Shown: positions 40,085-41,107 of the stretch, in pieces | Layout of the letters: every line of letters begins with the position of its first letter | How positions within the stretch are numbered: the stretch's first letter is position 1 | Origin: an uncultured Cohaesibacter sp. | Lineage (GTDB): Bacteria > Pseudomonadota > Alphaproteobacteria > Rhizobiales > Cohaesibacteraceae | Assembly (NCBI RefSeq): GCF_963678225.1 | Contig: NZ_OY782764.1 | Location: 1,803,001-1,867,000, forward strand | Direction of reading: 5' to 3' | Length of the DNA stretch: 64,000 nt | Notes under the pieces: generated by a model | Databases searched by the model: none | Seen by the model: the letters and a program-made list of their open reading frames with translations, nothing else | What the model was told of the DNA's origin: nothing | Program-made: the position numbers and the translations under genes

Positions 40085-40547
40085 CAATGACATTTTGCGC
40101 TGCAGTCTTGCTACGGCAGGGGCTGTTTGGGGCGCCCGGAGCTTTCCGGGCCAGCCTGTTGCCTTTCTGCGTGCCTTGGTCCCGCTGTTGATGCCAAATT
40201 TCTGAAACTTCCGGCAAAGTGGCTGCGTGTCGGCGCGATGAGCGGTGAATTTAAATCGATATAAATAGTGCTTTGAAGGCTGGTCGAGGGCAAAAATGGT
40301 CCCTTTTGTCTATCGCAAAGGGATATTTTGCACCGACACCATCGATTTTTCCCTCCAACTAGCCTTGCATTCTATGCAAAGGAATTAAGCGGTGGAAACT
40401 ACATACGCCCTTAGTCGTAAAGAGTGGTGTTTTTAAGGTATTGAAATATATAGATAATTATTTACATAGAATTTTGATATATCAATAATGCATAGCTAAA
40501 TTTTGAGATGATATTGAATTGCATGGTCGTCAAGACAGCTATGCAAA
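40085..40547. other. Intergenic region between folC and the DUF1127 gene
   Basis: No gene is seen. A GC-rich imperfect hairpin (40116-40163, core GCCCGGA / TTCCGGGC) and a second one (TCCCTTT / AAAGGGA at 40300-40323 followed by TATTTTG) may be folC terminators. From about 40380 to 40530 the sequence is markedly AT-rich, unlike the rest of the core, which suits a regulated promoter. Confidence 0.4.
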
Positions 40548-40577
40548 CTTGGGGGGTGAAAAAATCGAAGCCATGTT
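40548..40577 (+). promoter_or_regulatory. Candidate heat-shock-type (RpoH) promoter for DUF1127 and the small RNAs
   Basis: CTTG at 40548-40551 and CCATGTT at 40571-40577, 19 bases apart, resemble the alphaproteobacterial RpoH pattern (CTTG, about 17-18 bases, then C-Y-T/A-T). It lies about 115 bases before the DUF1127 start. A sigma-70-like alternative is the TATACATAAT stretch just downstream. In Rhodobacter the equivalent DUF1127-CcsR locus is stress-induced from an RpoH-type promoter; here the match is by eye and imperfect. Confidence 0.35.
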
Positions 40578-40690
40578 CTATATACATAATCAAGAAAGCG
40601 ATGAGGAACTTTAAAACGAGTTACAACTCAGACGCTTTCGAAAAAAGCAGTTGAACCCCTAATGCCACATAGCAACAAAGGATGACGACA

Positions 40691-40846
40691 ATGATGAATA
40701 CTGTTGTGAAGAACTACCGTCAGTGGCGCAACTACCGTGACACTGTTGAAGAACTGAACCGTTTGAGCACCCGCGATCTTAACGACCTGGGCATCTCCCG
40801 TTCAGACATCAGCGACATTGCACGCGAAGCTGCTACTGCAAAATAA
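40691..40846 (+). CDS. DUF1127 small protein
   Basis: Small basic protein of 51 residues (two adjacent ATGs, the second at 40694), with AAAGGA about 9 bases upstream. The sequence has the DUF1127/YjiS signature: aromatic-basic helix 'NYRQWRNYRDTVEELNRLS' followed by 'TRDLNDLGISRSDI', in which R-x-L-x-D-(L/I)-G-(I/L)-x-R is the family core. Arg-rich DUF1127 proteins in alphaproteobacteria bind RNA or affect sRNA maturation and phosphate or carbon metabolism. The Rhodobacter homologue upstream of the CcsR RNAs is a well-studied example. Here three CCTCCTCCC hairpins follow within 170 bases, so the protein and RNAs are very likely one transcript. Confidence 0.88.
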   Translation: MMNTVVKNYRQWRNYRDTVEELNRLSTRDLNDLGISRSDISDIAREAATAK

Positions 40847-40852
40847 AAAAGT

Positions 40853-40884
40853 CTTTCGCTGACGATCAAAAGTCCAAGCGAAAG
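40853..40884 (+). other. Intercistronic hairpin between DUF1127 and the first CCTCCTCCC hairpin
   Basis: Perfect 8-bp stem CTTTCGCT / AGCGAAAG with a 16-base loop, beginning 7 bases after the DUF1127 stop. It lacks a T-tract, so it should not end transcription. It may protect the mRNA 3' end or mark a processing boundary before the small RNAs. Confidence 0.5.
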
Positions 40885-40904
40885 CCACGAGTTTCTTAAG
40901 AATT

Positions 40905-40930
40905 CAGGCTTTACCTCCTCCCAAAGCCTG
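40905..40930 (+). ncRNA. CCTCCTCCC-loop hairpin 1 (cuckoo/CcsR-like)
   Basis: Perfect 8-bp stem CAGGCTTT / AAAGCCTG enclosing the loop ACCTCCTCCC. The CCUCCUCCC loop mimics the anti-Shine-Dalgarno end of 16S rRNA and defines the alphaproteobacterial cuckoo RNA family, to which Rhodobacter CcsR1-4 belong. Position right behind a DUF1127 gene is the known arrangement. Whether hairpins 1-3 form one RNA or are processed apart by RNase E cannot be told from sequence. Confidence 0.8.
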
Positions 40931-40934
40931 ATCC

Positions 40935-40966
40935 GATCCAAAACTTCCTCCTCCCGGTTTTGGATC
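40935..40966 (+). ncRNA. CCTCCTCCC-loop hairpin 2 (cuckoo/CcsR-like)
   Basis: Perfect 10-bp stem GATCCAAAAC / GTTTTGGATC with the loop containing CCTCCTCCC at 40947-40955. It begins 4 bases after hairpin 1 ends. The stem sequence differs completely from hairpins 1 and 3 while the loop is identical, so selection acts on the loop and on base pairing only, a hallmark of a structured RNA. Confidence 0.8.
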
Positions 40967-40975
40967 CTCCAACGA

Positions 40976-41013
40976 AGCCCACCGGACCTCCTCCCCCGGT
41001 GGGCTTTCGTTTG
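40976..41013 (+). ncRNA. CCTCCTCCC-loop hairpin 3, doubling as terminator
   Basis: Perfect 10-bp stem AGCCCACCGG / CCGGTGGGCT with loop ACCTCCTCCC, followed by TTCGTTTG. GC-rich stem plus T-rich tail makes it a plausible Rho-independent terminator for the whole DUF1127-RNA transcript. As in cuckoo RNAs, the last hairpin carries the conserved loop too. Confidence 0.8.
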
Positions 41014-41107
41014 TCTGCCCTCCTGTTTTCCGGTCTATTTCGCACTGACCAGCGCTCATGCGCGCGGATCTCCATCTTTGCTCTCAGGCAAAACCTGAAA
41101 AAAGGCA

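Follow-up and report, generated by a model that had tools for sequence, protein, structure and literature searches.

In the window, by which we mean the whole 64-kb stretch of DNA analysed here, a short DUF1127 gene is followed directly by an array of three RNA hairpins, and a conserved promoter element stands upstream of both. The arrangement is probably a two-product operon, in which a LysR-activated promoter would give rise to a DUF1127 protein and to a processed alpha-r14/cuckoo sRNA silencing a set of mRNAs. A VtlR/LsrB orthologue encoded elsewhere in the genome probably activates the promoter just upstream of about position 40590, and gene and array would be cotranscribed. The transcript would be translated into a 51-residue DUF1127 protein, while its 3' end, closed by the third hairpin, would represent the alpha-r14/cuckoo sRNA, which an endonuclease such as RNase E probably releases from the mRNA. 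By pairing with ribosome sites resembling GGGAGGAGG, the three CCUCCUCCC loops may then block translation, any one of them being able to serve as the seed. The targets would be a set of mRNAs, probably including many for nutrient uptake. The features of the locus are collected in Table 1. Papers are cited by accession, for those parts of their text that were available.

Table 1. Features of the DUF1127-alpha-r14 locus in the window and related arrays elsewhere
Feature	Position	Strand	Basis or remark
Conserved element TTGCAT-N16-ATGCAA, VtlR/LsrB-site-like	40519..40546, core 40531-40545	+	conserved in relatives
Conserved -10 box CTATAT	40578..40583	+	alignment of type A copies
Possible 5' leader hairpin GAAAGCG/CGCTTTC	40594..40639	+	fold of 40590-40720; weak, z = -1.8, 12/200 shuffles as good
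Ribosome site AAAGGA	40677-40682	+	ahead of DUF1127 gene
DUF1127 gene, 51 residues	40691..40846	+	Pfam PF06568, 55.3 bits against cut-off 23.3
Intercistronic hairpin CTTTCGCT/AGCGAAAG	40853-40860/40877-40884	+	inverted repeat, fold
ar14/cuckoo sRNA	40899..41011	+	Rfam RF02344, 91.8 bits against cut-off 58.8, model positions 1-123 of 123
Hairpin 1, 9 bp	40904-40912/40923-40931	+	motif CCTCCTCCC at 40914-40922
Hairpin 2, 10 bp	40935-40944/40957-40966	+	motif CCTCCTCCC at 40947-40955
Hairpin 3, 11 bp	40975-40985/40996-41006	+	motif CCTCCTCCC at 40987-40995; then TTTCGTTTG
Phage-like ar14-type arrays	L302:2356-2476; L298:1528-1647; 38 more among L271-L335	-; +; 	beside phrog_16 helicase gene

The DUF1127 gene and the intercistronic region

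The mechanical open reading frame of the DUF1127 gene begins at 40682 and comprises 54 residues. The protein is taken to have 51 residues, beginning at 40691, since this start codon is the one conserved in the alignment with relatives. The 51-residue gene proposed in the first-pass annotation is borne out by this conserved start and by the Pfam score, whereas the coordinate 40548, from which the locus had been made to begin, falls within the promoter region and outside any gene. Among 14 type A copies the gene has a pN/pS of 0.22, evidence of purifying constraint. Small DUF1127 proteins of Agrobacterium have been reported to act on the kinase PhoR (PMC12501420).

The stop codon of the gene and the start of the ar14 RNA are 52 nt apart in the window. 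The hairpin lying in this gap had been described as one of 8 bp; that stem is present, and on its inner side there are 3 bp more and a bulge of 2 nt. The stem CTTTCGC/GCGAAAG is kept, with a variable loop, in type A and type B copies and is absent from the others. The hairpin occurs only where the gap between gene and array measures 37-52 nt.

Structure and family of the hairpin array

Directly 3' of the DUF1127 gene, at 40904-41006, there are three perfect inverted repeats with unrelated stems and with CCTCCTCCC in every loop. The motif is found three times in the 64-kb window, each time inside a loop of the array; of 100 shuffled versions of the window, 4 reached three or more matches anywhere. 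In the fold of 40844-41016 the three hairpins of the array and the intercistronic one all form, and none of the three motifs is paired (-63.1 kcal/mol, z = -7.3; none of 200 shuffles as good). Inverted repeats, motif count and fold thus agree with the earlier description of three hairpins that differ in their stems and share one loop.

Reading these hairpins as a cuckoo-type array with anti-Shine-Dalgarno (anti-SD) loops was likewise confirmed. A covariance-model score had been set beforehand as a check, and the array passed it with a full-length match to ar14, at 91.8 bits the sole such model to reach its cut-off. The window copy also displays the ar14 trait of CCUCCUCCC unpaired in all three array loops with variable stems. 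Besides the array, a single tRNA and no other RNA of Rfam exceeded its cut-off in the window. By this match the array is an alpha-r14/"cuckoo" RNA, belonging to the family of NfeR1. The curated family that was matched is alpha-r14/NfeR1; the likeness to CcsR is drawn from its published description and not from a covariance model.

Conservation of the structure was followed in an alignment of 25 of the 37 arrays of the genus, the 12 omitted being mostly near-duplicates. With the window structure applied to these 25 arrays, 95.5% of 874 cells were paired, a figure that is favoured because the reference structure came from one row of the alignment, and 15 of 35 pairs had changed on both sides, compensatory changes that are not favoured to that extent. 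Neither value was reached in any of 500 column shuffles, and pairing fell to 53-56% when the partners were slid by one column. At the outer end of helix 3, the last three pairs are broken in 8-9 of the 25 sequences. Loop motifs are largely kept over the arrays of the genus and shortened in some copies; in the third array of the source genome, one of the three loops carries the full motif.

The third hairpin had also been considered the terminator of the transcript. This role is plausible, since TTTCGTTTG follows directly 3' of the stem, but the terminator scan, whose loop limit of 8 leaves hairpin 3 outside its range, returned only an overlapping structure of 7 pairs at 40998-41019.

The promoter and its candidate regulator

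The conserved element sits 5' of the DUF1127 gene and not between the gene and the array. In the alignment of the regions upstream of the gene it reads TTGCATGGTCGTCAAGACAGCTATGCAA in the window and is followed by the CTATAT box, the same hexamer as the published -10 of alpha-r14 (PMC10746234). The spacing suggests a transcription start near 40590. Scanning with the sigma-70 pattern CTTGAC/CTATAT gave a result at chance level (124 of 300 shuffles as good) and no good -35, and a generic sigma-70 scan returned four matches, at 40369-40502, all of them upstream of the conserved element.

A strict pattern of the element stands upstream of 35 of the 37 arrays of the genus, with L140 and L163 one base off each; at L145 and L176a, from another genus, it has no match. 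The source genome contains three matches, all at DUF1127-ar14 loci and none elsewhere, which indicates specificity but not independence, because the pattern was drawn from these very loci. An independent test was made with an element profile built without the loci, at least 120 in number, on which it was then run; strand was ignored, as the element is near-palindromic. Forty-five of 60 matches fell within 500 nt upstream of arrays, a zone that makes up 6.6% of the sequence, as did 14 of the 15 matches at E up to 0.1 among the loci listed.

Of the 15 bases in the VtlR motif published for Brucella, 12 are shared by the element core and 13 by the core of the second copy (PMC12595884). The generic VtlR box GCAT-N3-TG-N3-T (PMC7486931, PMC8844928) is present on the minus strand at 40532-40544, although this box is not rare on its own, with 17 occurrences in the window against 13.4 expected. 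Elsewhere in the source genome, a LysR gene is found behind trxB (L195:456-1650). Its product is 59.8% identical to a LysR protein of S. meliloti that also follows trxB, and 59.1% identical to a Rhizobium protein annotated as VtlR. Judged by this identity and by the trxB neighbour, the gene is the VtlR/LsrB orthologue. Its surroundings, comprising trxB, the LysR gene and an AbcR-like RNA, are the neighbourhood reported for VtlR/LsrB. From the likeness of the element, the identity of the LysR gene and the trxB/AbcR-like surroundings taken together, we infer that VtlR/LsrB drives the window locus. LsrB of Agrobacterium is redox-responsive (PMC11975290), so that stress induction of the locus might be possible by a route other than RpoH.

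The AbcR-like/ar15 match 3' of this LysR gene scored 33.2 bits, under its cut-off of 40. The motif TGCA-N6-GCAT, published for LsrB (PMC10746234), stands before it.

Distribution of the locus

Three ar14 matches are present in the source genome, C2:1843899 (the window), C2:874093 and C1:68600, and each lies just 3' of a short DUF1127 gene. A fourth DUF1127 match of this genome is a 179-residue frame with no ar14 nearby. The first-pass annotation had pointed to the occurrence of the locus in a different order of bacteria. It does lie outside the Rhodobacterales, but this is not new, as three-hairpin RNAs have already been described in Rhizobiales (PMC3927594), and the locus is one of three such loci in its genome.

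Across the genus, 37 arrays over the cut-off were found in 18 genomes, and in 35 of them a DUF1127 gene ends 0-52 nt upstream; the exceptions, L163 and L164, are without the gene. Two further genera of the family contributed three more distinct arrays (L145, L149, L176a), which likewise have a DUF1127 gene in front. At the level of genomes, ar14 over the cut-off was detected in 23 of 61 relatives and in 1 of 190 drawn from the class, namely the source genome.

A pattern scan of genome contigs yielded at least 120 loci, whose clades were set by hand from record titles and whose counts are those of a sample. Among the matches listed, the element was present at 44 of 85 loci in Hyphomicrobiales, 1 of 20 in Rhodobacterales, none of 11 non-alphaproteobacterial loci and none of four from unresolved clades. 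A DUF1127 gene within 400 nt upstream was found, again among the matches listed, at 23 of 85, 18 of 20, none of 11 and all four, respectively. The 11 non-alphaproteobacterial matches are probably chance or coding repeats. When the neighbours of the window locus were compared with the at least 120 loci, no synteny was seen except two weak addA matches. In one S. meliloti record, none of the three ar14 copies is directly preceded by a DUF1127 gene, and the coupling of gene and array is therefore not universal.

Two side observations concern the layout of these clusters. Rhodobacterales arrays (L107, L090, L094 and others) carry up to 12 CCTCCTCCC motifs, and clusters with more than three motifs make up 17 of 20 Rhodobacterales and 19 of 85 Hyphomicrobiales loci among the matches listed. 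At L268:2267-3104 of the S. meliloti record, a tandem ar14 pair is followed, some hundreds of bases further on, by two DUF1127 frames, so that gene and RNA are neighbours in reversed order.

Comparison with known systems

In alphaproteobacteria, short DUF1127 proteins frequently occur together with CcsR-like sRNAs, an arrangement labelled the CIN1 locus (PMC10253847), and the same paper refers the cuckoo family and this locus to Reinkensmeier and Giegerich (2015). As defined there, a CIN1 locus consists of a short DUF1127 gene adjoining anti-SD hairpin RNAs. The window locus, with its short DUF1127 gene adjoining a cuckoo array, has this form, and the arrangement as such is therefore already known.

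The alpha-r14/NfeR1 RNA of S. meliloti (RF02344; Smr14C2, SmelC397) resembles the window array in its three hairpins, in the anti-SD motif of each loop and in its unrelated stems, as well as in the CTATAT -10 and an LTTR-type element upstream (PMC10746234). NfeR1 is transcribed from a promoter of its own, and in the S. meliloti record no DUF1127 gene immediately precedes it, whereas the window element stands before the DUF1127 gene. In Rhodobacter sphaeroides, ccaF1-CcsR1-4 shows the same order of DUF1127 gene and RNAs, which form one operon there (PMC10253847, PMC8625941). Processing of the ccaF1 mRNA releases the CcsR RNAs, a step in which RNase E and the DUF1127 protein take part (PMC8625941, PMC10253847). 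That system comprises four RNAs behind an RpoHI/RpoHII promoter (PMC10253847), in contrast to three hairpins and a VtlR-like element in the window.

The first-pass annotation had taken the locus for one of CcsR type, and as regards the order of gene and array this was correct. The locus is nevertheless unlikely to be a genuine CcsR-type operon that is driven by RpoH and induced by stress and whose DUF1127 protein helps RNA maturation. Such an operon would account for a gene order like that of ccaF1-CcsR1-4 (PMC10253847) and for the nearby DUF1127 gene at 18 of 20 listed Rhodobacterales loci, and the best RpoH1-type match in 40301-40690, GGTGAA-N16-TCTATAT at 40555, even includes the conserved -10 box. 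This match, however, has 3 mismatches in 13 and is at chance level, with 56 of 300 shuffles as good, and its -35 part is GGTGTA-like in relatives instead of CTTGAA. What is conserved is the VtlR-like element, which is present at only one of the 20 Rhodobacterales loci among the matches listed, and two genomes keep the RNA without a DUF1127 gene in cis. To judge by its sequence, the switch of the window locus appears closer to that of rhizobial family members than to that of the Rhodobacter system.

VtlR-activated small protein genes of Brucella and Agrobacterium share the VtlR box with the window (PMC12595884, PMC7486931). Those of Brucella are called DUF1127 genes (PMC12595884), and atu1667 is called a small hypothetical protein (PMC7486931). 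For these genes and the abcR sRNAs, the available parts of both papers mention no cuckoo arrays behind them. A VtlR/LsrB element linked to DUF1127-cuckoo operons was not found in the literature searched, from which some key papers were out of reach, and no priority is claimed. The two-product operon would join two threads that were met only separately in the available literature, the VtlR-activated DUF1127 genes and the LsrB-activated anti-SD sRNAs. If the layout is common in Hyphomicrobiales, deleting a DUF1127 gene may at the same time abolish or alter an sRNA, a point that would bear on the interpretation of DUF1127 phenotypes.

Candidate targets

NfeR1 has three loops that are redundant on ribosome sites, and it silences transporter mRNAs and ntrBC (PMC10746234, PMC7143759). 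The pattern GGGAGGAG-N3-10-ATG was found at 18 places in the source genome, compared with 7 for the pattern read backwards; control places with AAGAGGAG numbered 31. Ten of the 18 sites and ten of the 31 controls, chosen by ORF length, were annotated. Longer sites omitted from this sample were L182, L189, L190 (nearly identical to L179) and L192, and among the controls L246 and L253; the controls L230 and L231 are not independent, being neighbouring sites in rpoC-like sequence. Transport genes made up 4 of the 10 candidate targets and 1 of the 10 controls, which in so small a test is not a significant difference (p = 0.30). The DctP and TctC binding-protein genes, at L187 and L188, are among the candidate targets.

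The loops, whose sequence resembles the anti-SD tail, might alternatively damp translation in general, through broad competition for ribosome sites with the tail of the 16S rRNA. Their likeness to the tail and the excess of 18 places over 7 would suit such a role. It is nonetheless improbable, since NfeR1 has specific targets for which its loops are redundant seeds (PMC10746234), and few starts in the genome match the full length, which suggests a limited target set. Broad competition for ribosome sites, as proposed in the first reading of the sequence, is thus less likely than the silencing of a set of mRNAs in the manner of NfeR1 (PMC10746234).

Arrays without the gene and arrays on phages

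The two arrays that lack a DUF1127 gene, L163 (genome G012) and L164 (genome G007), have genes on both flanks that are common to third-locus copies of other species (among the matches listed, for L163, L164, L158 and L139). Both retain the conserved element; it lies upstream, and the roughly 73 nt that separate it from the array contain no DUF1127 gene. Since the RNA is kept there without the gene, the DUF1127 protein is not needed in cis in these two genomes, which offer a natural way to part the two functions. A purely cis-acting role, in which the hairpins would do no more than terminate and stabilise the DUF1127 mRNA, is highly improbable: transcription probably ends at hairpin 3 and the array follows within 0-52 nt of the gene in 35 copies of the genus, but stems that vary with compensation around largely kept loops are the opposite of what a terminator needs, and element and array persist without the gene in two genomes.

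Type C (third-locus) copies have lost one residue of the conserved stretch from the domain in 10 of 12 cases. These third-locus DUF1127 genes were also considered as pseudogenes, a possibility ruled out by a pN/pS of 0.24 over 12 copies.

Within the two-product operon, the element and the cuckoo array could form a self-contained module of the VtlR/LsrB regulon, in which the DUF1127 gene is optional and can be lost. Alphaproteobacterial phages might carry such modules too, next to the gene for the replicative helicase and with an element of similar kind in front of the array, and these modules would apparently plug into the host VtlR/LsrB network. We propose this extension tentatively, holding it somewhat less probable than its converse. 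The triple-motif pattern was met on 65 contigs of IMG/VR, of which 40 carry a three-hairpin array and, at a distance of 32-183 nt from it, a phage-type helicase gene (phrog_16). A literature search for phage-borne arrays beside this helicase found nothing. Four IMG/VR contigs, two of them among the 40, were searched with Rfam, and all four gave ar14 over its cut-off. In 27 of the 40, a match to the element profile precedes the array by about 50-75 nt; most of these matches are weak (E at most 0.11 in 7, best 0.0017). DUF1127 frames within 1 kb were seen on 2 of the 65 contigs, neither of them among the 40. Coding repeats and arrays of host-like type are found among the remaining 25 contigs. 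If confirmed, phage-borne copies would mean that phages use a host-type anti-SD sRNA.

The array stretch of L302 had no match in the phage collection, where the closest helicase is that of Rhizobium phage RHph_TM3_3_14B, at 54.7%. At the two phage-like loci examined, the neighbouring genes are those of phage replication, recombination and DNA modification.
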